DNA of 64,000 nt, from contig QIBA01000049.1 of assembly GCA_003225175.1 (NCBI GenBank), positions 1 to 64,000 of the forward strand. The letters are read 5' to 3'. Below the pieces are notes generated by a model. The model ran no database searches. It saw only the letters and a list, made by a program, of their open reading frames with translations, and was not told where the DNA came from. The DNA comes from Acidobacteriota bacterium. GTDB lineage: Bacteria; Acidobacteriota; Terriglobia; Terriglobales; Acidobacteriaceae. The position numbers were made by a program, and so were the translations under genes. Every line of letters starts with the position of its first letter. The first letter of the stretch is position 1. Shown piece after piece: positions 15,174 through 64,000 of the stretch.

Positions 15174-15272
15174 GTAGAGACGTAGAATGCCTAAGCAATG
15201 CCGCGTGAGCCAGGCATGCTATGCGCTTCAAACATTCGAGCACGGAGGAGACGCAGCATGCTGCGTCTCTAC
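15174..15272. repeat. Two copies of the GTAGAGACG palindrome between convergent genes
   Basis: The gap between the convergent dioxygenase and cytochrome genes begins with a degenerate copy right after the TAA stop (GTAGAGACGTAGAATGCC, 15174 on). It ends with a near-perfect palindrome (GAGACGCAGCATGCTGCGTC, 15248 on) that contains the TAG stop of the minus-strand cytochrome at 15269-15271. Either copy could fold at a transcript 3' end. No T-run follows, so classical terminator function is not shown. Confidence 0.6.
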
Positions 15273-18200
15273 TTGTCCTCCCCGCTTCCCTTCTTTTGCT
15301 GGTCTGGCTCCTCGACCGCTTTGAGTGGAGTGTGGGAATCCACCGGTCGCCCCGGAGGAGCATTCGTCACTGTATAAAGCTCGCCGTTCCGCATGTACAT
15401 CCGCAGCATCTCCTGCTGATTGAAAGGCCGCGCGCCACGACGTCCAAATACTGAGAGCTGATTCCCGCTCTCATCGACGCCGCGATCACGGTCAGTGCCT
15501 TCTGAGACGATGAGCGCCGGTCCTTTGGTCTTGTATCTGGCGATAAGCTTCGGAGTTGGCGGTGGACTGAATCCATAGAATTTATCGTTATCGACCGGCG
15601 AGAATAGCTGCACGATTTTGAAGCCGGCTTCGCCATCCGCGACGAACGCAAACTGGCTGGAGCTAACCATTCCTGTCTTTACATCGCGCGTATCCCTCAA
15701 TTCGCCATTGGCATTGAACATTTGCGCAAGTTTTGGATGCTCTGGGCGTTCGATATCGATAATCGCCATGCCATCCTTACCGTCCGCGACATAAGCGTAT
15801 GTGCGGGCCAGATAGACGTTACGGGCATCACCTAAGAGGACCTTCGCGCCGTCGACCAATTTGGGCTGGTCGAGATGCGTGATGTCAAAAACTTTCAAGC
15901 CCTCCTTATCGGTCACAAACGCATAGCGGAATTGAACGGCCACACCGGTTGGCTCGTTCAGCACAGGCGAACCGATCTCAGCCGTAATCTTCGGGTGCAA
16001 CGGATCGTCGAGGCTCACAACCTCAAGACCTCGATCGCACAGGATATAAGCGTAGACTCCGGCGATAGTGATGCGGCGAGCTCCGTTTAGCTTTCCGTCA
16101 GGATTGAACGTAGCGGCCCGACGAACGAAATTATTCGCCGGATTGCCATCGAGCAGCGTGCCCACTCCGGCAAAGTCCTTCTTCTCCTTCAGGTTGTTGC
16201 CGAGGACTACAAGCCCCTCATACTTGTCGGTTCCGTAAAGGAAGCCGTACATCAAGTGGATCTGCTGCTCTTCATTTTGTGGATCATGGCGCCGCAGCGG
16301 ATCGACTCCGAGCGTAGTCGGGGTTGCGATTGCCGTGGCATATTTGCTCTTCACGTAAAACTTTTGTCCGAACGGTGAAACTGGAGCGGTAACGATCTTT
16401 TCCGAGAAATCCTTGTTATCAATCTGGGCGACGTCGTAGAAGCGGAATCCCCCCTTGCCCAGCGCTGCGTACGCGTACTCGCCGCGTAGTTGAATGTCGA
16501 GCACCTCTTCTCCGCCGAGTTTTGCGCGCACCGGATGCTCATCCGCATCCAGCTCCCGCTTGTGCTTTTGGAACTCCTCATAATTTTTGGGATAGGCAAT
16601 CTTATGGAAGTCACTGCCGTAGATCGCTGGTGGCTCCTCGTGCTCGGCGATCTTGACGGCATTGAACCCCTCCTCACCCGCGGCGACGTAGACGTAGCGT
16701 CCCATGAAGTTGAGGAAGTTTGTGCCTTGAATCAGGACCTGCGCCATCCACGCATTGTTATCTTTCTCCTGCGAGACGTGGCAGTCCGTGCACTCTTTCG
16801 TTTCTTTGGCGCGCACAGTGTGCGGGACGTAGGGACTGAAAGCCTCTCCGCTGAAGCCTTCTACTGAAACAGTTTGCTGCTGGTAGTAGAGCCAGTCGCG
16901 CTGAGCGTTCTGCGAGCTCACCACAACTGCACAGGCTGAACGAATCGGAGAAACGCGATTACCGGTGACCGTGCCATCGATGCCGAGCATGTACACGTCA
17001 TCCCGCAACACCATGAAATCGTAGGCGGTGTAGTTGCGCGTGAGCAGCCCTTCGTTGTGCAGCATCGGCATGCGCTGATTGGCAGACATCGACAAGTGGC
17101 ATCCGAAGCAGCTTGTGGTCCAGGACGTGTGACAGCTCTGGCAGCTCATCTTGGTGGAAGCGTGCGCGAGCTTCGTGAGATCGTTTTGATCGGCGATGGT
17201 TCCCCAGGTAATGCCGTCCTTCTGAATCGTCTTTGCCAGCCGCGACTTCTCGCTGTAGTGCGGACGACCAGGCGTGATCGTGTCGATTACCTGCACGACT
17301 TCCCATTCCTGATTTGCCTCCATGATCGAACGCTGGTAGAGACGATCGCCGCGCCAATAAAACTGTTTCTCCTTGAATGGCGTTGTATTGATCGCAAGAT
17401 TGATTCCGTTACCCGGTGCTGCCGGACCATTCGCGACCAGGGTTGCGCGGGAGCGAAGATCGCCATGGCAAGCTTCGCAGGTGATGACCAGCGCATTGCG
17501 CGTCTCGCCATAGAGCTTGCCGTTGCCATGGTTATCCTGCGAGAAATGGCAATCGGCGCATTGCATTCCCTTATCGAGATGAATGTCGGAGAGGTGAACG
17601 GCTTTCTTGAACTTTTCCGGATCCTTCCAGTCCACAACATTGCCGTCTGCGTCGAGCAGATTCCCCTTACGGTCATGCTTGTACACCGCGCGGAAGATCC
17701 AGCCATGACTGTGGAAGTCGGCCATCTGGGTCTTATCGAGCTGCTTGTTGAACTCAGGCGTGCCGACTTGCTGCAGGAAGCTTACGTCGCGCCATTTACC
17801 GCGATCGGCAGATCCTTCGGGATTGCGCACCTGGGCTCGATATGCATCCGTTGCCGATGGATCGTGTTGCTTCTGCGGATACATTTTGTCGGCGTTGATC
17901 TCGTTGTCCCACCATGTGTAGCCGTAGTACGTGGTGACCATGTTCGTGCCGGGATGAACGTGGCAAGTCATGCACTGGCTGGACGGAATCGAGAGCGTGA
18001 AGACATGCTGCAGAGGATGCCCGGTCTCGCTCTTCGAGATCGTCGGATCCGACTGCTGCGATATGCCGAGGTTCCCGTAACGGGCATACTTGCCGGAGTG
18101 CATCGGGTCGCGATCGTTGGCATAGACCACGTGACACCCGCTGCACCCGCCCTGGCGATAATCACCGGGCTGGTCGTTGGTGCCGGGAAATGACAGGAGT

Positions 18201-19195
18201 GGATCAAGCAGCCGGGTTTTTTGCAATCCAAGGAAAACTGGATCGGTGCGCAGCTCTGTGCCAAATCCCCGCGTGGACAGCTTCACGTCGGGATGTCCTG
18301 GATCCTCGTCCGAAACAGGATTCCCAATCTCGCCCTTTTCCCGTCCACCGCGCTCGAACACTCGCAGCACATTCCCAGGCTGGGAGATCTCCCAACGCTG
18401 CAGCGGATCGATGTACGGGAGGACTCCCTTCTGCTTCGTCTCTTCTGGAGTCGGTGGGGGCCAAGTGATCAGCCGCTGCGGCTTGCCATCCCGCGAGTAA
18501 CTCTCTCCGAAGCGCGGATTCTTTAACGGATATCCGCCGTTGTTGTACAACGCAGCGCCCCAGAGCATGGCTCCGTGGGTCATCATGCTGGTGCGGACCT
18601 GGTGAACTTCTTCGGAATGGCATCCGGAGCGCCCGCAGGTCTCCTGGGACACGCGGTTGTCGCCGGGATTTACAAACTTCACCCATTCAGCGCTTTCCTT
18701 CAACCAAAGCGACCCAAAATAGGAACGCACCGGATTCGCGGCGGAGTGCTCGTCTTCGCGAAATCGCGCGCGAACGTGGGCCCTGTTTTTTGCATCGTTG
18801 TATTGCGCAGAATCCTTAGCCGCGCTGTTCATCACCGAGGCATCCCCGCCATGGCAATCGGTGCATCCGAGGCGCACCGTTCCCGGAGCATGCATCGTCG
18901 CGCTATCGATGGGATTGTGGCAGCCCGAACTCATGCAGCCGCGCGTCTTGGCGTCGGCTTCGTCCTGTGTCTGCAGGATCAGAAGTTGCGATCCTCGCCG
19001 CTGCGTGCGTTCGGTGATGCTCTCAGTCTGATCCTGCGACGAAGTTTGCGATTTTGTGGAGCTGGATTGCTGGGATTGCTGCGCTCCATGATGCTTGCTG
19101 GAAGCATTCGCTCCTGCTGCCAGACGCGTGATGAGCACCAGGCAAATTGCGAGGCCAAAGATTCCCATTCGACGAATGCTGCGAGACCTCTTCAT
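15269..19195 (-). CDS. Large multiheme cytochrome c with C-terminal LVIVD-like beta-propeller
   Basis: A 1308-aa exported protein. After a signal peptide (about residues 1-30) comes a low-complexity Ser/Gln linker, then ten c-heme motifs between about residues 86 and 805: eight CXXCH (CTDCH, CSGCH, CMTCH, CADCH, CEACH, CQSCH, CFGCH, CTDCH) and two CX4CH (CMSSGCH, CGRSGCH). From about 820 to 1250 there are repeats of the type YAYVADGKDGMAIIDI and YAYILCDRGLEVVSL, the LVIVD pattern of surface beta-propellers. No membrane anchor. It lies 35 bp downstream of an outer-membrane barrel gene on the same strand. Likely a periplasmic or surface electron carrier; the acceptor is unknown. Confidence 0.9.
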   Translation of the reverse strand: MKRSRSIRRMGIFGLAICLVLITRLAAGANASSKHHGAQQSQQSSSTKSQTSSQDQTESITERTQRRGSQLLILQTQDEADAKTRGCMSSGCHNPIDSATMHAPGTVRLGCTDCHGGDASVMNSAAKDSAQYNDAKNRAHVRARFREDEHSAANPVRSYFGSLWLKESAEWVKFVNPGDNRVSQETCGRSGCHSEEVHQVRTSMMTHGAMLWGAALYNNGGYPLKNPRFGESYSRDGKPQRLITWPPPTPEETKQKGVLPYIDPLQRWEISQPGNVLRVFERGGREKGEIGNPVSDEDPGHPDVKLSTRGFGTELRTDPVFLGLQKTRLLDPLLSFPGTNDQPGDYRQGGCSGCHVVYANDRDPMHSGKYARYGNLGISQQSDPTISKSETGHPLQHVFTLSIPSSQCMTCHVHPGTNMVTTYYGYTWWDNEINADKMYPQKQHDPSATDAYRAQVRNPEGSADRGKWRDVSFLQQVGTPEFNKQLDKTQMADFHSHGWIFRAVYKHDRKGNLLDADGNVVDWKDPEKFKKAVHLSDIHLDKGMQCADCHFSQDNHGNGKLYGETRNALVITCEACHGDLRSRATLVANGPAAPGNGINLAINTTPFKEKQFYWRGDRLYQRSIMEANQEWEVVQVIDTITPGRPHYSEKSRLAKTIQKDGITWGTIADQNDLTKLAHASTKMSCQSCHTSWTTSCFGCHLSMSANQRMPMLHNEGLLTRNYTAYDFMVLRDDVYMLGIDGTVTGNRVSPIRSACAVVVSSQNAQRDWLYYQQQTVSVEGFSGEAFSPYVPHTVRAKETKECTDCHVSQEKDNNAWMAQVLIQGTNFLNFMGRYVYVAAGEEGFNAVKIAEHEEPPAIYGSDFHKIAYPKNYEEFQKHKRELDADEHPVRAKLGGEEVLDIQLRGEYAYAALGKGGFRFYDVAQIDNKDFSEKIVTAPVSPFGQKFYVKSKYATAIATPTTLGVDPLRRHDPQNEEQQIHLMYGFLYGTDKYEGLVVLGNNLKEKKDFAGVGTLLDGNPANNFVRRAATFNPDGKLNGARRITIAGVYAYILCDRGLEVVSLDDPLHPKITAEIGSPVLNEPTGVAVQFRYAFVTDKEGLKVFDITHLDQPKLVDGAKVLLGDARNVYLARTYAYVADGKDGMAIIDIERPEHPKLAQMFNANGELRDTRDVKTGMVSSSQFAFVADGEAGFKIVQLFSPVDNDKFYGFSPPPTPKLIARYKTKGPALIVSEGTDRDRGVDESGNQLSVFGRRGARPFNQQEMLRMYMRNGELYTVTNAPPGRPVDSHTPLKAVEEPDQQKKGSGEDK

Positions 19196-19230
19196 TTATC
19201 CCCTGAGCTCACCGGGTTCAACTTGCCTAT

Positions 19231-21528
19231 CTAGAACACGAACTTAATCAATGCAAAGGCACTAAGCAGCGTCTGGCCGGTATAGATATCCCGCAAGCCG
19301 CGCGCTGGAACTAATCCTGTAATACCGCCTTCGAAGATGATGTTCTCGGACAATGGCGGCCGATAGATCACACCAGTGCCAAAGTCCGCTCCTATCCCCC
19401 GATGAATGTGGTTCTGGAACAGAACAAGCTGAATCGGCTCGGTGTGGACGAATTGCAGGTAGTTGAAGTTCACCACCCAACGCATCTTCGGAGTTATGTC
19501 GAAGTCGGCTCCGGCGTTGAACACATATGCGCCGGGATTCACGTAGTTCGCCTGGCCCTCGTTCTTACTTGCTCTCAAATCGGGAAACAAAGCATTGTCC
19601 GACTTCAGGCCAATGAGCGTGCTCGTCAAACGAATGCCTTCACGGTTCCAGAAGCTGAACGGACCGCCGGCAAAACTCTGCGCTTCGTCGATCGAGTCGA
19701 ATCCGCGGGCAATACCGTCGCGCGGATTCTTGTCACCAGACGCATACAAGAACGAAGTGCGCAGCCGCAGCCAATCTTTGTCGAGGGACAATTCCAGCGC
19801 CGCCAGTTGCGCGTTGATGTCGACACGATCGCACTTCCCGAATCCCTGCGGACACGGAGTTACATTGCGCCGCGAGGCAACCTGATTATCCGTGTCGTAT
19901 CCCAGCACCTGATAAAACGCGGACGACACGTTGATCCGTTTAATGTGCCCGTTGCTGGCTGTTCCGATGTAATGCGAACGAATGCCATGCGGAATAATTA
20001 CGCCAATCGGCTCCGGACGCGTGATGATCCCGTTGTTGTTGTAATAGATCGAAGGATCATCTTTATCAAAGTGGTAGCTGAATTGTGTTGTGTAACCCTT
20101 GAACAAAAAGTCCTGCAGGTACAGGTTCGCGATCGCCACCTGCTGATGGCGGTCATTGAACGTGTTCAGCCCACTATTGGTGTCTTTCTCCAGGTGATAG
20201 AAGTACGCGAGGTTGTACTCATACTTGTCTGACTTCAAATTTCCGAAGATCCTTAGCCCAGGCTGCTCTTCTGAGTAAATCAATCCGCGGAAATCACTTT
20301 GGAATTGCTGAATACCAGCGCGGACCGAAACGAAATCAAAGTTGGGACTCAGATCCTTGATTTTGTACTCGAAAAACGCGGCCTGCAGACCCACGTGATC
20401 GTCGAAACGATCAGTTCCCCGCTGCGGATTGATGTTCACGATGCCGCGCTCTCGCGTCAGCAGGTAATTCACGTCGAACGCCGGCGTGAAGACAATGCGC
20501 CAATCCTTCGGACGGAAGCTGGCATCGCCGTGGTAGAGCTCGCCGGTAAAGCGGAATAGTTCGCTGAGGAAGAACTGTCCGCCATTGCCGAAAAATTGAA
20601 ATGATCCCGGATTACGCGCGGCTACCAAGCTTGGCGTTGGCAAACGACGCCCGTCCAGAGCGCTGACTGCGCTGCCCGTGAAGACGAAGAAAGTTTGCTG
20701 CCCAAAGATTGGATAATCGCCCTTGAGCTTGTTGCGATTGAAGGGATCGTACCAATGACCACTGGTGTACGGGTACTCGCCTGAAGCGGCGTACCTCTTA
20801 TAGGCATTCAGCGGATCTTTGGGATCGCCACTCGTGATGTCCCAGCGGTAGCTTCGTTTCTCAGCGTTCGCGTTCTCAGTTGGCGGACCCTGAGCAGCCG
20901 CTGTTTCTGCCGGCATGGTCTCGTTGGGACGCCGGCGCATCTCGTTATAAGGTTGCTTTGCTTCTGCTTCAGTTTGACCCGCCTTCGGCGGCACAGCACC
21001 GGCCAAGGGACGATCCATCGGACCGTTCGCAAGGTACTCCTCTGTCGTTTGCAGCTTTACTTCAATGCTGAGGACTTCGCCCGGACTGACGCGGACGTTC
21101 TGGCGAGTAAAGTCCTGGAAGCCTTGTCGGCGCAGCTCGATCTGGTACACGCCAGCCTTGAGATCGCCAATGCGAAAAACACCATCGGCATCGGTGAGCG
21201 CAGCATGCAGGTGCCCGTTACTGTCGCGAATGATCACGCGCGTGCCGCCGATGCCGCGACCATCTGCACTGGTCACAAGTCCTTCAACCGAGCTCGTGGT
21301 AATGGGACGCCGGTTCGGCAACCGCCGCTGCGGTCCCTGAATGACAGTTTCTTTTTCCTGGTCTTCCTCTTTATTACGTGCCGAAGGAAGCTGCGCCGGA
21401 TCCGCAGGAGTAGTAGCGGTGGCGGTCTGCTGCGACGAGGGCGATGATTCCTGTCGGAGTCCCACAGCGGAAACGGTCAGACACACCACCGCCGCCAGCG
21501 GGCCGCACAGAAGTCTCCGGACGCTCAA
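19231..21528 (-). CDS. Outer-membrane beta-barrel protein with carboxypeptidase-regulatory-like N-domain
   Basis: A 765-aa protein with a signal peptide (to about residue 25) and a carboxypeptidase-regulatory-like Ig-fold domain (about 78-168: VEGLVTSADGRGIGGTRVIIRD ... GVYQIELRRQGF). A long C-terminal region follows with alternating aromatic/polar strands, ending in LSAFALIKFVF. The terminal Phe and alternating pattern match the BAM-recognised beta-signal of outer-membrane barrels. No TonB box or plug domain is recognisable, so it is not a clear TonB receptor. It is first in a two-gene unit with the ten-heme cytochrome. By analogy to porin-cytochrome conduits it could be the sheath that lets the cytochrome cross or dock on the outer membrane. 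Confidence 0.85.
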   Translation of the reverse strand: MSVRRLLCGPLAAVVCLTVSAVGLRQESSPSSQQTATATTPADPAQLPSARNKEEDQEKETVIQGPQRRLPNRRPITTSSVEGLVTSADGRGIGGTRVIIRDSNGHLHAALTDADGVFRIGDLKAGVYQIELRRQGFQDFTRQNVRVSPGEVLSIEVKLQTTEEYLANGPMDRPLAGAVPPKAGQTEAEAKQPYNEMRRRPNETMPAETAAAQGPPTENANAEKRSYRWDITSGDPKDPLNAYKRYAASGEYPYTSGHWYDPFNRNKLKGDYPIFGQQTFFVFTGSAVSALDGRRLPTPSLVAARNPGSFQFFGNGGQFFLSELFRFTGELYHGDASFRPKDWRIVFTPAFDVNYLLTRERGIVNINPQRGTDRFDDHVGLQAAFFEYKIKDLSPNFDFVSVRAGIQQFQSDFRGLIYSEEQPGLRIFGNLKSDKYEYNLAYFYHLEKDTNSGLNTFNDRHQQVAIANLYLQDFLFKGYTTQFSYHFDKDDPSIYYNNNGIITRPEPIGVIIPHGIRSHYIGTASNGHIKRINVSSAFYQVLGYDTDNQVASRRNVTPCPQGFGKCDRVDINAQLAALELSLDKDWLRLRTSFLYASGDKNPRDGIARGFDSIDEAQSFAGGPFSFWNREGIRLTSTLIGLKSDNALFPDLRASKNEGQANYVNPGAYVFNAGADFDITPKMRWVVNFNYLQFVHTEPIQLVLFQNHIHRGIGADFGTGVIYRPPLSENIIFEGGITGLVPARGLRDIYTGQTLLSAFALIKFVF

Positions 21529-57077: not shown

Positions 57078-58523
57078 TTACCGCACGGCTGAGTTCAGCC
57101 TTTTCATTGCCGCCGCAAACTTGGAAGCGTTGTAGGCTGACGGGTTCTCCAGCTGCTGGAAGAGCCCGTTGATGGCCGCTCGAGCCTCCCCGCCGCTGCT
57201 TCCACCGGCTTTGGCGTAGGCGATATAAATCGAATCCAGCGCCATTGCAGCTTGTTCTGCAGCGCGCTCTCCCTGATCGGAGATGTAGTCGGCATCGCCC
57301 GAAATAGCCCGCAGAAGTCGCGCCGTCTTCTCGCGGTCGAAGGAGGCTGTGCGCAGCTCGTCGGCTAACCTACCGGCGAGATTCGCAGCCTGGTTCGACA
57401 GCTGCTCGATATCCTCGCGGCTGGGCTGAAGCGAACTGACCAGCGCGGCGAGCTTCTTCATTGTGTTCTGAAGTTCTCTTGAGGTGCCGGCGTCAACCTC
57501 GTTCGCCACATGCTGGAATACAACTACGCGCGACAAGTTGTATGCCGGATCGCCCGCACGGCGAGTCTGGTAGTATCCTCGGCCTCCTCGGGGGTTCTCC
57601 GTCACGCTGCGCAAGCGCCAGCTTTCGTCCGAGGGAGTTAGGCTATGGTGGCAGGCAAAGCAGTCGAGTTCGGCGTACTCAGGCCAGACCAAGCCCTTCT
57701 TACCCTCAGTTCCCTTCGCGCGGCGAGCCAACCGATTCATGCTTTCCTGAAGCTGAACTGCCTGGCCCACGCTCCATTGACGCACCCCTAACAATGGGTC
57801 TTTGTCGGCTTGCTCAGCATGTCCCGGGATCTTTTCTACCCAATGAACCGGTTCCACAGCTTGGAAGGAGTCGAGTTCGAAGACCAAGTCGGGGTGACCC
57901 GCAGCGATCATCTCGTGATCCACGTATTTTTCGGCGGTTCCCAGATGGCAGGTGAGGCATTTTTCCGTGCGCAACCGCAGATTTTTAGTGTCGAACATGC
58001 CCATCGCGACGGATTTCTCATGCGCCCAATCACGAGCAGTGTGCGGTCCAAGCCATTGTGATGACGGTCCGTGGCAGCTTTCACAACTCACGCCATCATT
58101 GATGTCGAACTCGCGGGCCTTTTCAGCGTTGCTCGCGTAAAGAGCATGGCAAACAAGACATTTCGGCGCGTGGGCCGCATCGGCTGCCCCGAGGCTCCCT
58201 GGGCCGAGAATCTTTGCGATGCGTTGGGAAACAGAGTTATTCAGCACATTCCAGGCTTTGGCGTGCTTATCCTGAAGCACCCAAGTGCTGTACTCATTCT
58301 GCAAAACCTTAGTCTGCTGTCGTGCCTGAACGGATCCATGGCAGGCCGTTGCACTGCACGAGCCAGGTCCCACGTACCGCGCCTCTGCTGCCGAAACTGG
58401 CTGCAGAAAGTTGGGCTTATCGGCAGCTTGAGATGAATGCGGAAACAAGAATGACAATACCGCGCAGATTCGAACAACAGCAGTGGAGCGAGCATTCGAG
58501 CAACAGCACAGCCGTCGATTCAT
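57078..58523 (-). CDS. Five-heme-motif periplasmic cytochrome c
   Basis: A 481-aa exported protein. Signal peptide about residues 1-33 (ending SSQAAD). Heme motifs: CSATACH (CX4CH) near 56, then CLVCH, CESCH, CLTCH and CFACH up to about 295, so five c-hemes. HMIAAGHPDLVFELD and similar His supply axial ligands; the order resembles the cytochrome c554 family. The C-terminal 190 residues are helical and heme-free. Divergent from the NuoEF-type operon across 241 bp, so it may be co-regulated and exchange electrons with that complex. Confidence 0.88.
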   Translation of the reverse strand: MNRRLCCCSNARSTAVVRICAVLSFLFPHSSQAADKPNFLQPVSAAEARYVGPGSCSATACHGSVQARQQTKVLQNEYSTWVLQDKHAKAWNVLNNSVSQRIAKILGPGSLGAADAAHAPKCLVCHALYASNAEKAREFDINDGVSCESCHGPSSQWLGPHTARDWAHEKSVAMGMFDTKNLRLRTEKCLTCHLGTAEKYVDHEMIAAGHPDLVFELDSFQAVEPVHWVEKIPGHAEQADKDPLLGVRQWSVGQAVQLQESMNRLARRAKGTEGKKGLVWPEYAELDCFACHHSLTPSDESWRLRSVTENPRGGRGYYQTRRAGDPAYNLSRVVVFQHVANEVDAGTSRELQNTMKKLAALVSSLQPSREDIEQLSNQAANLAGRLADELRTASFDREKTARLLRAISGDADYISDQGERAAEQAAMALDSIYIAYAKAGGSSGGEARAAINGLFQQLENPSAYNASKFAAAMKRLNSAVR

Positions 58524-58656: not shown

Positions 58657-58685
58657 TTTACCCGTGCACTGCTCTTTGTTATAGT
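58657..58685 (+). promoter_or_regulatory. Sigma70-type promoter of the redox operon
   Basis: TTTACC (58657-58662, 4 of 6 to TTGACA), 17-bp spacer, TATAGT (58680-58685, 5 of 6 to TATAAT). It predicts a transcript start near 58692 and a leader of about 70 nt to GTG 58765. Confidence 0.6.
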
Positions 58686-58764
58686 CCGCCTCTGACTTCG
58701 CGAAGAACTTGTTGGTTTTTCCACTTCCCCCGGACGTGTTCCTGAGCGGGTCCAAGGTATCCCT

Positions 58765-60510
58765 GTGGCGATTCCCGGTACTTCATTGGCCCAACCCAGC
58801 CCGGCTGCACACAACACGGAGGGAATCTTTGAGGATCTGAAAGCGGTTCAGCGGGAGTTTGGTTATCTGCCTGTCGATAAGCTTCAGGCAATCGCTGATT
58901 CTCGGTCGATGCATGTTCGGGAAATTCATGCTGTTGCCAGTTTTTACCCACACTTCCACCTCACGGCTCCGGCGCGTGTCGATGTCCGCGTTTGCACCGA
59001 TATGTCATGCCACCTTCGTGGCGCAAACGTTCTTAAGCGACAGATCCAGGATCGGCTGTACGGACGCCCTGCAGCTGATTGCAGCATCCGCGAGATCTCC
59101 TGCCTCGGTCGCTGCGACGGCGCTCCAGCCGTTCTGATCTCCAGCAAAACCGAAGAGCAGATTTACGACAACATCACTAGCGACCGCGTCGCCGATGCTG
59201 TTGCACGCAACTTAAGCGGCGAACCTTTGCCGCACACACGTCCTGAACGGCTGCGCCAGGAGCTCCATTCCGATCCTTACGTCGGCACTCCGAAGTATCG
59301 CGTTCTGTATAGCCTGGTTCAAACCGGAGACTTCGCCGGGGTCATCTCGCAACTGAAAGCGAGCGGCTTGCGCGGTATGGGCGGAGCCGGATTCCCCACC
59401 GGAAACAAATGGGAGATAGTCCGCAATTGTACCGACAATGAAAAGTACGTAATCTGCAACGCCGATGAGAGCGAGCCGGGAACGATCAAGGATCGCTTCA
59501 TCATGCAGCACCTGCCGCATTTGCTCATCGAAGGGATGATCATTTGCGGTCTCGTTACCGGCGCGAACAAAGGCATTCTCTACATCCGACACGAGTACGA
59601 GCATCCGAAAGACGCCTGCCAGGACGAGATCGATGCTTGTTATAAAGATGGGCTTCTGGGCAAGAACATCCTTGGTACGGATTTGGATTTCGATCTCAGC
59701 ATCTTCGTAAGCCCTGGGGGATATATTTGCGGAGAAGAGACTGCGCTTATTGAAGCCATTGAAGGCAAGCGCTCCGAACCTCGTAACAAGCCTCCATTTC
59801 CTGTTTACCAAGGCCTTTGGCATAAACCCACAGCGCTGAACAATGTGGAAACGTTCGCGCTGGCAACGGTAATCCTCGCGCGAGGTGTGGACTGGTTTAA
59901 GAACTACGGTCGTAAAGGGTCTCCGGGCATCAAGTTCGTCGGTATCAGCGGCGAAGTGCGCAATCCCGGCGTCTTCGAAGTGCCCATGGGTATCACTTAC
60001 GACGAACTGATCAACGGCCACGCCGGCGGTCCGCTCCCCGGAAAAACTATCAAGGCCTTCGCTCCATCAGGACCTTCCTCGGGATACTTGCCGGCTTCGA
60101 TGTTGAATCTCCCGCTCGACTGGGACACGATGTCTAAGCCGCCGGTCAGTTCCATGGTGGGATCGGGGGCTATCGTTGTTTGTTCAAATGAAGCCTGCAT
60201 GCTCGACATGGCATTGAACGCGGTGAAGTTTTACCGCAACGAATCCTGCGGCAAGTGTGTTCCCTGTCGCGTGGGTTCGCAAAAACTGGTCGATATGCTT
60301 ACGAACTGGACGCAAGGCAAACAAAATTCCACTGATCTTCAAGCTCTCGAAGAGCTCAGCCAGGCCTTGTCTCTGACCTCGATCTGCGGCCTCGGGCAAA
60401 TCGTGCCTGCTCCTATTCAGTCGGTGATGAGGCACTTTCGCGATGAAGTTGAAGCGCACGTCAAGGAGAAGGAATGTCGCGCGGGCGTCTGCCGGATCGG
60501 AGGCTCTTGA
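58765..60510 (+). CDS. NuoE-NuoF fusion (NADH-oxidising diaphorase subunit)
   Basis: A 581-aa fusion of two complex I-type modules. Residues about 18-150 are the NuoE thioredoxin-like 2Fe-2S domain (VCTDMSCHLRGA and CLGRCDGAP supply the four Cys near 77, 82, 113, 117). Residues about 170-575 are NuoF: NADH/FMN loop GLRGMGGAGFPTGNKW (near 201), NADESEPGT, GGYICGEETALIEAIEG, and the 4Fe-4S site CGKCVPC (near 495-501) with the fourth Cys in CGLGQI (near 541). All ligands are present, so it should oxidise NADH in the cytoplasm. GTG 58765 start with AAGG 7 nt upstream. Stop overlaps the next ATG. Confidence 0.93.
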   Translation: MAIPGTSLAQPSPAAHNTEGIFEDLKAVQREFGYLPVDKLQAIADSRSMHVREIHAVASFYPHFHLTAPARVDVRVCTDMSCHLRGANVLKRQIQDRLYGRPAADCSIREISCLGRCDGAPAVLISSKTEEQIYDNITSDRVADAVARNLSGEPLPHTRPERLRQELHSDPYVGTPKYRVLYSLVQTGDFAGVISQLKASGLRGMGGAGFPTGNKWEIVRNCTDNEKYVICNADESEPGTIKDRFIMQHLPHLLIEGMIICGLVTGANKGILYIRHEYEHPKDACQDEIDACYKDGLLGKNILGTDLDFDLSIFVSPGGYICGEETALIEAIEGKRSEPRNKPPFPVYQGLWHKPTALNNVETFALATVILARGVDWFKNYGRKGSPGIKFVGISGEVRNPGVFEVPMGITYDELINGHAGGPLPGKTIKAFAPSGPSSGYLPASMLNLPLDWDTMSKPPVSSMVGSGAIVVCSNEACMLDMALNAVKFYRNESCGKCVPCRVGSQKLVDMLTNWTQGKQNSTDLQALEELSQALSLTSICGLGQIVPAPIQSVMRHFRDEVEAHVKEKECRAGVCRIGGS

Positions 60511-62711
60511 TGCCGTCGGCGAAAGAGATCACGCTCACTATTGACGACCAGAAGGTTACTGTTCCCGGCGGCACCACTATCTTCGACGCCGCTCGCATCA
60601 ACGGCATTCCCATTCCAACGCTTTGCCACCAGCAGAACGAGACTCCTGTCGGCGTTTGCCGCGTTTGCGTTGTCGATGTTGGCGCTCGTGTCTACGCCGC
60701 TGCATGCATCCGCGAAGCCGAGAACAACATGGTGGTGAAGACCAACAGCGAGAAGGTCAAAGCCGCACGCAAGACCTTGGTCGAACTGCTGATGGCCGAT
60801 CATCCATCACCCTGTGCGCGCGAACAGCAGTCGGGCGATTGCGAACTTGAGACACTCGCCAAGAGCTATAGCGTCGGCACATCACGTTTCGCCAAGCGAC
60901 TGATTCCCTCGCATCAGAAAGATGAATCCTCTCTGAGCATCCTCGTGGATCACTCCGCTTGCATACTGTGTGATCGCTGCATCCGGGGATGCTCAGAAAT
61001 TCGCCACAACTTCGTGATCGCTCGCCAAGGAAAGGGCTACGCTACTGCGATCTCATTTGACGCTGACTTGCCGATGGGAGGCTCTTCCTGTGTCTCCTGC
61101 GGCGAATGCATGGTGTCTTGCCCAACGGGAGCTCTGACAAATAAGAAAGTCCTGGGGCAGAAGCTTGAACAAGGCGCGGCGCTAAGCGGACTTTCGGTTG
61201 AGGCCCAAGAGTTGCTGGACTTGCCGGTGTTCAAAGGGGTCTCCGGCACATTCCTCGAATTAAACAAAGGCGCGGTCGTCAAGCGTGTGTATAGGAAAGG
61301 CGAGGTCATCTGCCGCGAAGGCGACTACGGCTCCACCGCGTTCTACCTCGTAGAGGGCACGGTAGACATCTTCATCTCCACTCCTCGCGCCCACGTCGAC
61401 ACCGAAGGATCACAGCAAGGATTTCTCAGTAAGCTCGCAAGCAAGTTGAAGCCCCGCAAGGAGCATCAACGCGAAGAAGAAAACACGTCACGCAAATTCA
61501 TTTACATCGACGCACCGGTCGACCTCGAATACGACCATCCCGTAGCAAAGCTTCATACTGGCGATTTGTTCGGTGAGATGACGTGCATGAATTTTTATCC
61601 GCGCAGCGCGACGGTGGTAGCGGCAGAGGACGTAGTTTGTCTGGAGATGCTGCGCAATGTTCTGGATGTTCTTCAGAAAAACAAAACCTTCCGCGCCAAG
61701 CTCGACGCCAATTATCGTGTCCGCGCTCTTGAAACCCACCTAAAGAGTGTCCCCGTCTTTGCGTCGCTCACACAGGACTTCATCGAGCATCTTCGTGATC
61801 GCGTTGAATTGCAACGCTTCGCTCCTGGGCAAGTTATCTGCCGTCAAGGCGATCCAGCTGACAGTTTCTACTTAGCTCGCATAGGTTTCATCAAGGTGAG
61901 TGAGGATCACCCGGGCGGCGAGCTCGTCCTTTCGTATCTCGCCCGCGGGAGCTATTTCGGCGAAATTGGATTGCTGTCGGATGAAGGCCGCCGTACCGCG
62001 ACTTGTACTGCCCTCGACCACGTTGAGGTCGTGAAAATTCATCGCGAAGATTTTCGCGAGATGCTCGGCCGCTTCCCACAGGTGCGAGCCAGCCTGGAGA
62101 CCGTGGCCCGCGACCGCATCGAAGAAAATCGCACCCGCATGCGCAACCTGCAGAGTGTGCCTGTAGACGACTTCCTCAAGCAGGGGCTCATAGACGCGCA
62201 GAGCCTGCTCGTGCTCGATCTGGATCGCTGCACGCGCTGCGATCAGTGCGTGAAAGCATGCGCCGACGCGCATGATGGAATTACCCGCCTGATTCGCGAT
62301 GGTCTGCGATTCGAGAATTATCTGGTTGCAACCTCGTGCCGCCAGTGTCGCGATCCACTCTGCATGATTGGCTGTCCCGTAGGATCGATTCGGCGTCGCA
62401 ATTCACTTGAAGTAATCATTGAGGATTGGTGTGTAGGCTGTGGACTATGTGCCAATAACTGTCCCTACGGCAATATTAATCTGCATGAATTCCCTGCACC
62501 GGCGGGAAGCAGCGGCTACAAAGCTACGATCAAGAAAGCGACTTCGTGCAACCTCTGCTACGACCATCCTGAGCCGAGCTGCGTTTATGCGTGCCCCCAT
62601 GATGCGGCGCACCGCGTTAATCCTCCGGAGTTCTTCGGCCAGATGCTGGGCGGAAAGAAGGTTGAAGCCGTCCCTTACAGCATGGCTCCGGGAATGATGG
62701 ACAGAAGGTAG
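60510..62711 (+). CDS. NuoG-like Fe-S protein with two cNMP-binding domains and four-cluster ferredoxin module
   Basis: A 733-aa mosaic. Residues 1-80: 2Fe-2S ferredoxin (LCHQQN, GVCRVC, AACI). About 95-112: His-Cys 4Fe-4S motif HPSPCAREQQSGDC. About 148-210: two 4Fe-4S sites (CILCDRCIRGC, CVSCGECMVSCP). This part matches the NuoG N-terminus. About 250-390 and 410-525: two cyclic-nucleotide-binding domains, each keeping Gly-Glu and Arg of the phosphate cassette (FGEMTCMNFYPRSAT; FGEIGLLSDEGRRTAT). About 570-700: an NrfC/HybA-like module with four Cys clusters (CTRCDQCVKAC, CRQCRDPLCMIGC, CVGCGLCANNC, CNLCYDHPEPSCVYAC). The molybdopterin domain is absent. ATG 60510 makes TGATG with the previous stop; GGAGG upstream. 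Confidence 0.9.
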   Translation: MPSAKEITLTIDDQKVTVPGGTTIFDAARINGIPIPTLCHQQNETPVGVCRVCVVDVGARVYAAACIREAENNMVVKTNSEKVKAARKTLVELLMADHPSPCAREQQSGDCELETLAKSYSVGTSRFAKRLIPSHQKDESSLSILVDHSACILCDRCIRGCSEIRHNFVIARQGKGYATAISFDADLPMGGSSCVSCGECMVSCPTGALTNKKVLGQKLEQGAALSGLSVEAQELLDLPVFKGVSGTFLELNKGAVVKRVYRKGEVICREGDYGSTAFYLVEGTVDIFISTPRAHVDTEGSQQGFLSKLASKLKPRKEHQREEENTSRKFIYIDAPVDLEYDHPVAKLHTGDLFGEMTCMNFYPRSATVVAAEDVVCLEMLRNVLDVLQKNKTFRAKLDANYRVRALETHLKSVPVFASLTQDFIEHLRDRVELQRFAPGQVICRQGDPADSFYLARIGFIKVSEDHPGGELVLSYLARGSYFGEIGLLSDEGRRTATCTALDHVEVVKIHREDFREMLGRFPQVRASLETVARDRIEENRTRMRNLQSVPVDDFLKQGLIDAQSLLVLDLDRCTRCDQCVKACADAHDGITRLIRDGLRFENYLVATSCRQCRDPLCMIGCPVGSIRRRNSLEVIIEDWCVGCGLCANNCPYGNINLHEFPAPAGSSGYKATIKKATSCNLCYDHPEPSCVYACPHDAAHRVNPPEFFGQMLGGKKVEAVPYSMAPGMMDRR

Positions 62712-62716
62712 CGCCG

Positions 62717-63613
62717 ATGATCATCGATCAGACACATCGACAGTGGTTCTGGGGAAGCGTGATCGGAGCAGCAGTGGGTGTCGCGATCTATATCCCATAC
62801 GCGCACTTCACCATTGGCGGAGCGCGCGGTGGGACGATCATCGGCATTTTCTATGGGATCGTTGGCTTCGGCTTCATGGTCTTCGCCGGACTGCTCAGCC
62901 TGCGTAAGCGATTTCCTGTCTGGCGCATGGGACGCACCTCCACCTGGATGCGTAGCCATCTGTGGCTAGGGTTGATCAGTTATCCAATCATTTTCCTGCA
63001 TTCGGGCTTTTCTTTCGGTAAGGGCGCACTTACCTGGTGGATGATGGTGATCTTCACAATCGTCATCATCAGCGGAATTATTGGCGCAATTCTTCAACAT
63101 TACTTGCCAAAGATGATGAGCAAACAAGTTCCTTACGAGACCATCTACGCCGAGATTCCAGTCATTCGTGGACAGCTTTTGGACGAGGCTGACGTTAAGG
63201 TCGCGGAAGTCACCGGTGTCTCGATGAGCGCGAGCGCGGTGACTAATGCAGCGGAAGACGCCGGTGGCGTGATCGTCACGCTGGTACAGATGGAAGAGGA
63301 TGTTCGCAATGAATTGACGCGCTTTTACGACAACGAGCTCCGGCCTTTTCTGGAGCAGTCAGGAGGAAAGGGCCGTGCAATTGCCGATCGCTCAACCTCT
63401 GTGGCGAAGTTTGCAAATTTGAAGACGCTTCTGCCTGAAGAGATCCATCCAGTGATCGCCGATCTTGAGATCATTTGTGAGGAAAAACGGCAGCTCGACC
63501 ATCAGATCGTGCTTCATCGCATACTCCACGGCTGGTTATTCATCCACGCGCCTTTGTCATTAGCTCTGCTTGTTATGGGAGCAATTCATGCGGTGATCGC
63601 TCTGACTTACTGA
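62717..63613 (+). CDS. Di-heme b-type membrane subunit
   Basis: A 298-aa protein with five predicted membrane helices (about 10-29, 37-60, 80-100, 105-127, 272-296) and a soluble insert at about 130-265. Helix 3 has His 81 and His 95, helix 5 has His 277 and His 291: two pairs, each 14 residues apart, the spacing used by transmembrane di-heme b proteins to stack two hemes. It should carry electrons across the inner membrane, or to quinone, between the cytoplasmic Fe-S proteins and the periplasmic cytochrome. It starts 5 bp after the previous stop. No known family is certain. Confidence 0.82.
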   Translation: MIIDQTHRQWFWGSVIGAAVGVAIYIPYAHFTIGGARGGTIIGIFYGIVGFGFMVFAGLLSLRKRFPVWRMGRTSTWMRSHLWLGLISYPIIFLHSGFSFGKGALTWWMMVIFTIVIISGIIGAILQHYLPKMMSKQVPYETIYAEIPVIRGQLLDEADVKVAEVTGVSMSASAVTNAAEDAGGVIVTLVQMEEDVRNELTRFYDNELRPFLEQSGGKGRAIADRSTSVAKFANLKTLLPEEIHPVIADLEIICEEKRQLDHQIVLHRILHGWLFIHAPLSLALLVMGAIHAVIALTY

Positions 63614-63622
63614 TACTGAAAC

Positions 63623-64000
63623 ATGGCCCGCAAACGCACAGCCAAGAGCCTCGGACAGCGACATGACTTCCACTACTTCCAGCGGTGGGGGCGGTGGCGA
63701 TTGCTTCGAGCCGGATTGATGGCTGCTGTTCCTGCGCTGGCCATTATTTGGCTTCTCGGCTATGCAATGCGGCGAAATGCGGAACCCTACTCCAGCGGTC
63801 CCCTTTCATCAGTACATTCGTTCACCGGCAAACGTTGCGACATTTGCCACGCGCCAACGCTCAAAGCTGGTTTCATCAGTGTGGGATTCCGCAAGCACGT
63901 CAGCGATCAGGCTTGCCTTAATTGCCATCAGGCTCCTGCACATCAATCTTTACAGACGTTCACCCCCACCTGCGCATCCTGCCACACCGAGCATGTTGGC
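63623..64000 (+). CDS. Membrane-anchored multiheme cytochrome c, cut by window end
   Basis: Open frame from ATG 63623 through the window edge (126 codons seen). MARKRTAKSLGQRHD is a basic cytoplasmic start, then a membrane helix (about 32-48, AAVPALAIIWLLGYAM), then three CXXCH motifs: CDICH, CLNCH and CASCH within about 50 residues, implying more beyond the edge. The single N-terminal anchor would hold it on the periplasmic face next to the di-heme b subunit, 9 bp upstream. Likely the electron exit or entry of the operon. Confidence 0.85.
   Translation, partial: MARKRTAKSLGQRHDFHYFQRWGRWRLLRAGLMAAVPALAIIWLLGYAMRRNAEPYSSGPLSSVHSFTGKRCDICHAPTLKAGFISVGFRKHVSDQACLNCHQAPAHQSLQTFTPTCASCHTEHVG

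Follow-up and report, generated by a model that had tools for sequence, protein, structure and literature searches.

The first 64,000 bases of the 93,286-base contig QIBA01000049.1 (the window), from a 5.7 Mb Acidobacteriota genome, end within a tightly packed gene cluster. It encodes a NuoE-NuoF fusion (NuoEF), an iron-sulfur (Fe-S) protein that we call FeSCNB, a putative diheme cytochrome b (cytb) and an anchored decaheme cytochrome c (Table 1). We conclude that this cluster probably encodes an inner-membrane oxidoreductase between reduced nicotinamide adenine dinucleotide (NADH) and periplasmic cytochrome, which is non-bifurcating and quinone-independent, feeds an outer-membrane conduit and is possibly controlled by cyclic nucleotides. 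The gene set is widely conserved and apparently undescribed. An initial annotation of the window had proposed, from the same four core genes, a transmembrane link between NADH and periplasmic cytochromes without pump subunits. This link is the best supported part, i.e., by synteny, by the concordance of NuoEF with a HoxU domain, by swapped modules, by invariant histidines and by the anchored decaheme. Not named at the time were the cyclic nucleotide (cNMP) domains and the four predicted [4Fe-4S] clusters of FeSCNB, the c554-like gene and an outer-membrane pair encoded in the same window.

First, we consider the conservation of the gene set. Relatives were collected by a FeSCNB-based scan of 84,980 species genomes, from which the best 80 of at least 544 relatives were kept, a selection that favours the window's own type. 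Counts over 84 rows refer to these 80 loci plus L003 (the window's locus with 13 kb of further contig sequence added downstream) and L034-L036, where L034 and L118 appear to be the same locus. Gene presence was scored with a cut of 100 bits, such that the decaheme matches of L116 and L131 (83 and 50 bits) are uncounted. Sufficient room around FeSCNB, i.e., at least 2.0 kb upstream and 2.6 kb downstream, is given for 63/80 loci. Among these, 61 encode cytb, 60 the decaheme, 57 NuoEF and 55 all three; L109 lacks both cytb and the decaheme, and L133 lacks cytb. The order NuoEF, FeSCNB, cytb, decaheme is observed in 64/84 rows among the genes scored. That is, the genes are associated beyond chance and the set is conserved across phyla, such that the concern raised with the initial annotation, namely that the genes might usually lie apart in related genomes, does not hold.

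The kept relatives are mostly Acidobacteriota, with further loci from Rokubacteria, Planctomycetota, Deltaproteobacteria, Wallbacteria and single records under other names. Among the named records in the best 80 of at least 544, the nearest Fe-S protein (94% identity) is encoded by 'Acidobacteria bacterium isolate gp1 AA112', an acidobacterial metagenome-assembled genome (MAG). Since one host is the named strain Granulicella aggregans M8UP14, the system is open to experiment. Neighbouring loci are phylogenetically related, such that all p-values overstate significance. A FeSCNB search of 396 genomes matched 394 of them, since CRP-like as well as HoxU domains occur widely; here, long matches alone were used, for orientation.

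The strongest sign of what the core does is the swapping of its flavoprotein modules. Within the 70/84 rows with more than 2 kb of upstream sequence, the NuoEF gene and the HoxU domain of FeSCNB are both present in 63 and both absent in 7, with no discordant row (Fisher p 8e-10, kinship ignored). The other 14 rows, at contig edges, comprise 5 with both, 6 with neither and 3 with HoxU but without NuoEF in the short remaining stretch. Loci with neither retain a cNMP-Fer4 protein, mostly together with cytb and decaheme (L123, L126). In more distant clusters, the core of CNB-Fer4 protein, cytb and decaheme is combined with other flavoproteins. In L040 (by Pfam) and in L041 and L044 (by alignment), the Fe-S protein itself carries a fused Pyr_redox_3 domain, and L038 and L045 encode a Pyr_redox_2-FHA-Fer2 protein of its own. 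The Fe-S protein and cytb are fused in L043, L048, L049 and L052, and the next gene in L043 encodes a single polypeptide with FHA, multiheme c, Fer4 and Pyr_redox domains. Because the flavoprotein modules are swapped in this way, electron transfer by the core would link NAD(P)H to hemes in the periplasm.

NuoEF (581 amino acids, aa) shows all four NuoE/NuoF Pfam domains above the respective cut-offs (2Fe-2S_thioredx, Complex1_51K, SLBB, NADH_4Fe-4S), which bears out its initial description as a fusion. Its residues suggest an NADH-only, non-bifurcating type. According to PMC7311640, bifurcating beta subunits have A/E232, M234 and GGPSG. The window's NuoEF carries EPGTIKDR, i.e., the non-bifurcating type, and lacks GGPSG. 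Over 68 NuoEF sequences, EPGT.KDR is present in 63 and absent from the other 5, while GGPSG is found in none. The C-terminal tail has at most 21 residues in 64/68, i.e., those in which the end motif was found, and therefore leaves no place for the C-terminal ferredoxin domain with its extra clusters. Electron bifurcation was rejected on this basis. That is, a HydABC-like enzyme in which both NADH and ferredoxin are coupled with the cytochromes is highly improbable, even though the NuoF part is nearest to HydB within the PDB and H, C and C close to its C-terminal end align with HydB. Membership in complex I was rejected as well, since a scan of seven proteins at 57.1-68.2 kb revealed no pump subunit of the Nuo membrane part. 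A second NuoF (467-aa frame) is found elsewhere in the window's genome (G000:C45:53191-53706) and perhaps belongs to an ordinary complex I.

FeSCNB (733 aa) overlaps NuoEF by TGATG. A HoxU/NuoG-N domain (~60510-61154), nearest to HydA, is followed by a cNMP-binding region (~61206-62129) and a ferredoxin domain of the four-[4Fe-4S] type (~62217-62624). The initial label of a NuoG-like Fe-S protein thus applies to the first ~215 aa only. The ferredoxin domain has 16 Cys with four-[4Fe-4S] spacing, each of which is kept in at least 78 of the 83-84 aligned rows. The motif FGE..R[STA]A[TS], which we take to be the cNMP phosphate-binding cassette, occurs twice in 68/84 rows and once in 16/84, some of these cut by contig ends; cyclic nucleotide binding is therefore predicted. 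Compared with HydA, the His-Cys3 (N5-type) site of the HoxU domain keeps its His and two of its Cys, while the middle Cys is Gln, Glu or His in all 68/84 rows that match the motif (16/84 are unmatched). The respective cluster is thus predicted to be altered or lost.

The cytb gene (298 aa) follows FeSCNB after a gap of 5 bp. Its two histidine pairs, 81/95 and 277/291, are located where the initial annotation had placed them, and all four residues are invariant across 47 aligned sequences. The AlphaFold model, with a mean predicted local distance difference test score (pLDDT) of 88.6, consists of four helices, a helical insert and a long last helix. The two transmembrane (TM) His pairs are spaced for two stacked hemes, such that we predict a diheme cytochrome b. 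The loop ahead of His81 (residues 62-77) holds 5 K/R and no acidic residue; given this positive charge, the His81 side should be cytoplasmic. His81 and His277 would ligate a heme on the cytoplasmic side, His95 and His291 one on the periplasmic side. NADPH oxidases and cytochrome b561 work similarly, with two HX13H helices that carry electrons from a cytoplasmic nucleotide across the membrane, but cytb shows no sequence match to them. Among the rows of a fold search with the model, b561 is the one heme protein recognised (Z 7.0, 133 aligned residues, root-mean-square deviation 3.6), and this Z lies in the range of unrelated helical bundles. Helical-bundle sensors from the same search were read as chance similarity.

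The initial annotation had named quinone as an alternative acceptor. Cytb could also hold a quinone site, i.e., it might exchange electrons with menaquinone, which would turn the system into an NADH:quinone or quinol:cytochrome enzyme. The inner-membrane exporters ImcH and CbcL of Geobacter do draw on menaquinol according to PMC12307469. For the system studied here, we consider such a quinone link rather unlikely, since cytb matches no recognised quinone-site family in Pfam and NCBIfam and since the predicted series of Fe-S clusters, diheme and decaheme would work without quinone.

The decaheme cytochrome starts 9 bp after cytb and runs beyond the window. The rightward extension of the contig completes it to 503 aa, with ten CXXCH and a single hydrophobic anchor at the N-terminus, which confirms both the anchored CXXCH cytochrome of the initial annotation and the tight packing that had been noted (TGATG overlap, 5-bp and 9-bp gaps). 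Ten CXXCH are found in 70/73 decaheme copies counted, and the protein weakly matches QrcA (26.6 bits, cut-off 180).

From these parts, we infer the following route. NuoEF would oxidise NADH at its flavin mononucleotide (FMN) in the cytoplasm, as its family and ligands suggest. The electrons would then pass the Fe-S clusters of NuoEF and HoxU and enter the four [4Fe-4S] clusters of the same FeSCNB polypeptide, from which the inner heme b (His81/His277), the outer heme b (His95/His291) and finally the anchored decaheme may be reached, presumably within one complex. From the decaheme, the c554-like and LVIVD cytochromes and the barrel of the outer-membrane pair would probably take the electrons to an extracellular acceptor. 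Since neither a quinone nor a proton pump is needed, the system likely serves to get rid of NADH reducing power under shortage of oxygen or of a quinol oxidant. The parts are symmetrical with regard to electron direction, the results agree with either one, and the related diaphorases HoxEFU and HydABC work reversibly. Electrons from the periplasm or from outside the cell (Fe(II), reduced humics, a partner cell) might thus enter the decaheme and reduce NAD+, driven by the membrane potential. As energy input is required to reach the NADH potential, we regard this reverse flow as quite unlikely.

The outer-membrane part of the proposed export route builds on a pair of genes that recurs with the core. 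This convergent pair lies after the cluster in many loci and consists of a multiheme cytochrome (~1,250 aa) that has LVIVD repeats, and of a barrel of ~740 aa. Among the 41 loci with long flanks (9.5 kb on either side), the LVIVD cytochrome is found in 27 and the barrel in 24, and a c554-like cytochrome is near the core in 36. In L040, L041 and L044 the order is Fe-S protein, cytb, decaheme, an HbpS-like protein, barrel and LVIVD cytochrome. The window's LVIVD cytochrome has 8 CXXCH and 2 CX4CH motifs; 9 and 1 are found in 21/29 copies counted. LVIVD-cytochrome matches were obtained in 117 genomes, of which 42 were kept by eye as near full length, 20 of them within a set of 199 genomes from the phylum. 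The remaining 75, with E values of 2.4e-20 at best, looked like LVIVD repeats or short multiheme pieces among the matches listed. Within the 199 genomes, a cytb match is present in 20/20 with a near-full-length LVIVD cytochrome compared to 15/179 without. Where the LVIVD cytochrome is not linked to the cluster (14 genomes), 12 genomes carry one elsewhere.

The model of the barrel has 18 strands of at least 10 residues, at a mean pLDDT of 60.9; large parts of the first 270 residues score below 50. An outer-membrane beta-barrel is thus predicted to be encoded together with a multiheme cytochrome, as in porin-cytochrome systems. We infer that the pair would pass electrons across the outer membrane, where synteny and co-occurrence suggest its partnership with the core. 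Alternatively, there may be no conduit; the acceptor would then be a soluble compound in the periplasm, and the barrel a porin for substrates. The barrel model is nearest to the substrate-specific porins OccK and AlgE (Z about 24), and c554-like domains are known in periplasmic redox chains. We take this alternative as possible but doubtful, given that the LVIVD cytochrome is very large, adjoins the barrel in many loci and has a partial match to ExtM, whose ext cluster in Geobacter holds a porin (PMC5877670). The match reaches 68 bits at an ExtM cut-off of 800, and membership in the Ext family was rejected on this score.

With regard to control by cyclic nucleotides, a class III nucleotide cyclase recurs near the core, with CHASE2 and a catalytic domain in the one representative scanned. 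Its linkage was assessed in the genomes of 50/80 loci, which were picked by eye, mainly for their long flanks, after a cyclase had already been seen near 15/84 rows; L101, with a nearby cyclase, is outside the 50. A cyclase lies at most 20 kb from cytb in at least 19/50 genomes, where 1.33 are expected from cyclase counts and genome sizes. For the 21 genomes with a single cyclase among the matches listed, 12 are within this distance (0.18 expected), 2 are at 72-80 kb on the same contig and 7 are on another contig. Four more genomes with several cyclases among the matches listed have one on the same contig at 38-82 kb. The cyclase follows the decaheme (L063) or the barrel (L058), precedes the c554-like gene (L081) or lies between the latter and NuoEF (L070). 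Since its place varies among loci, the linkage probably arose or was retained more than once (kinship ignored). The cNMP domains of FeSCNB would probably regulate the electron flow, with the linked cyclase as the signal source in some genomes. A wider reading we put forward only tentatively, namely that of a quinone-free NADH export line whose inner-membrane enzyme is gated allosterically by cyclic adenosine or guanosine monophosphate (cAMP/cGMP) from a dedicated linked cyclase, and that is built around an unnamed diheme cytb family with several unrelated NAD(P)H modules in Acidobacteriota and other phyla.

Several observations weigh against the proposed oxidoreductase and its conduit. No recognised family, e.g., that of bc1, NarI, b561 or the ferric reductases, was found for cytb: it has no Pfam or NCBIfam match at E 0.01, no PDB sequence match is convincing and the fold search gives no significant match (best Foldseek E 0.51). 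One segment of the wire would be unusual because the HoxU His-Cys3 site lacks one Cys. Electron loss from the cytoplasm to a periplasmic acceptor would dissipate rather than conserve membrane potential. The window's LVIVD/barrel pair (15269-21528) lies about 36 kb from the core, and the HbpS-like partner of its genome is on another contig (G000:C57:123479-124894). A cytb match without LVIVD cytochrome is found in 15/199 genomes, and 2 of the 14 genomes that lack this cytochrome at the locus, both MAGs, have none anywhere. An 18-strand barrel may be too narrow for a multiheme protein; the MtrB barrel has 26 strands. Finally, 31/50 genomes have no cyclase within 20 kb among the matches listed, and the three cyclases of the window's genome are all on other contigs.

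We also compared the proposed system with known ones. With the diaphorases of HoxEFU, NuoEFG-N and HydABC, it shares NuoEF and a HoxU-like domain, the FMN/NADH site and most Fe-S ligands. In contrast to these, the HoxU domain lacks the middle Cys of His-Cys3 and shares its polypeptide with cNMP domains and a four-cluster ferredoxin, and the membrane protein and the cytochrome replace hydrogenase, formate dehydrogenase or the complex I arm. A similar working is known from Tmc, Hmc and Qrc of sulfate reducers, which combine a periplasmic multiheme c, a membrane part and an Fe-S protein. By description, the system differs from them by an NADH module in place of the HdrD-like or molybdopterin-like part and by a membrane part without family.

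Inner-membrane electron entry into a multiheme periplasmic chain is shared with ImcH and CbcL of Geobacter. Those are described as menaquinol-fed in PMC12307469, while here an NADH module is built in; an NADH-fed feeder would thus be new. The Geobacter ext cluster extHIJKLMNOPQS encodes the outer-membrane porin ExtI, several multiheme cytochromes and a cytochrome b (PMC5877670), i.e., kinds of proteins also present here in addition to the ExtM similarity of the LVIVD cytochrome. The genes listed there include a Rieske and a rhodanese-like protein but no NADH module. An outer-membrane barrel beside a multiheme cytochrome is also a feature of MtrCAB-type conduits and of the porin-multiheme cytochrome clusters of Verrucomicrobia (PMC5615132). 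Many conduits additionally have surface lipoprotein cytochromes. Compared with these by description, not by sequence, the barrel modelled here has 18 strands and an N-terminal CarboxypepD_reg domain, and its cytochrome has LVIVD repeats. The composition reported here is not described in the accessible literature, judged by titles and abstract openings, a scope that leaves aside most subscription papers and all preprints. If the proposed mechanism is true, it would provide mostly uncultured phyla with a concrete way to unload reducing power, with iron, humics or electrodes as examples of acceptors. Through the cNMP domains and the linked cyclase, a second messenger could then switch electron export on or off.

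Table 1. Features of the window with coordinates, strand and the evidence for their assignment
Feature	Coordinates	Strand	Evidence
NuoE-NuoF fusion (NuoEF), predicted NADH-oxidising FMN module	58765..60510	+	Pfam domains, PDB match, non-bifurcating residues
Fe-S protein FeSCNB	60510..62711	+	Pfam/NCBIfam domains, 16 conserved Cys
Putative diheme cytochrome b (cytb), two HX13H helices	62717..63613	+	invariant His, 5 predicted TM helices
Anchored decaheme cytochrome c, 5' part	63623..64000, runs on to L003:8135	+	CXXCH count after contig extension
c554-like cytochrome, divergent	57078..58523	-	domain scan, 4 CXXCH + 1 CX4CH, likely signal peptide
Multiheme cytochrome with LVIVD beta-propeller repeats	15269..19195	-	partial ExtM match; partner of the core in relatives
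Predicted outer-membrane beta-barrel with N-terminal CarboxypepD_reg	19231..21528	-	structure model; adjoins LVIVD cytochrome

The initial annotation had set the start of the feature to 58657 and had reported a promoter-like site in front of the operon. This position does mark a promoter-like hexamer pair (58657-58685; 9/12 matches, extended -10), while the NuoEF gene begins at 58765 with a GTG as its first start. Since shuffles of the stretch give 0.4 such pairs, i.e., chance level, the pair is no evidence for a promoter. Scanning the operon resulted in 3 promoter-like sites versus 5.4 expected and 11 terminator-like sites versus 10.2 expected, and these sites were likewise discarded as evidence. 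Directly after the decaheme, a TPR protein and a ClC channel are encoded (L003:8285-11190), which we excluded from the operon because they adjoin the decaheme only in L114 among the 80 loci.

An HbpS/GlcG-like protein of ~520 aa with a likely signal peptide is found beside the system in 36/102 sequences (101 loci plus the window), e.g., at L068:5564-7135. This set includes loci with other module types (L040, L041, L044, L052). Very distant cytb relatives (L047, L050, L051, L053), from the same phylum, adjoin cytochromes with about 19 to 39 CXXCH.

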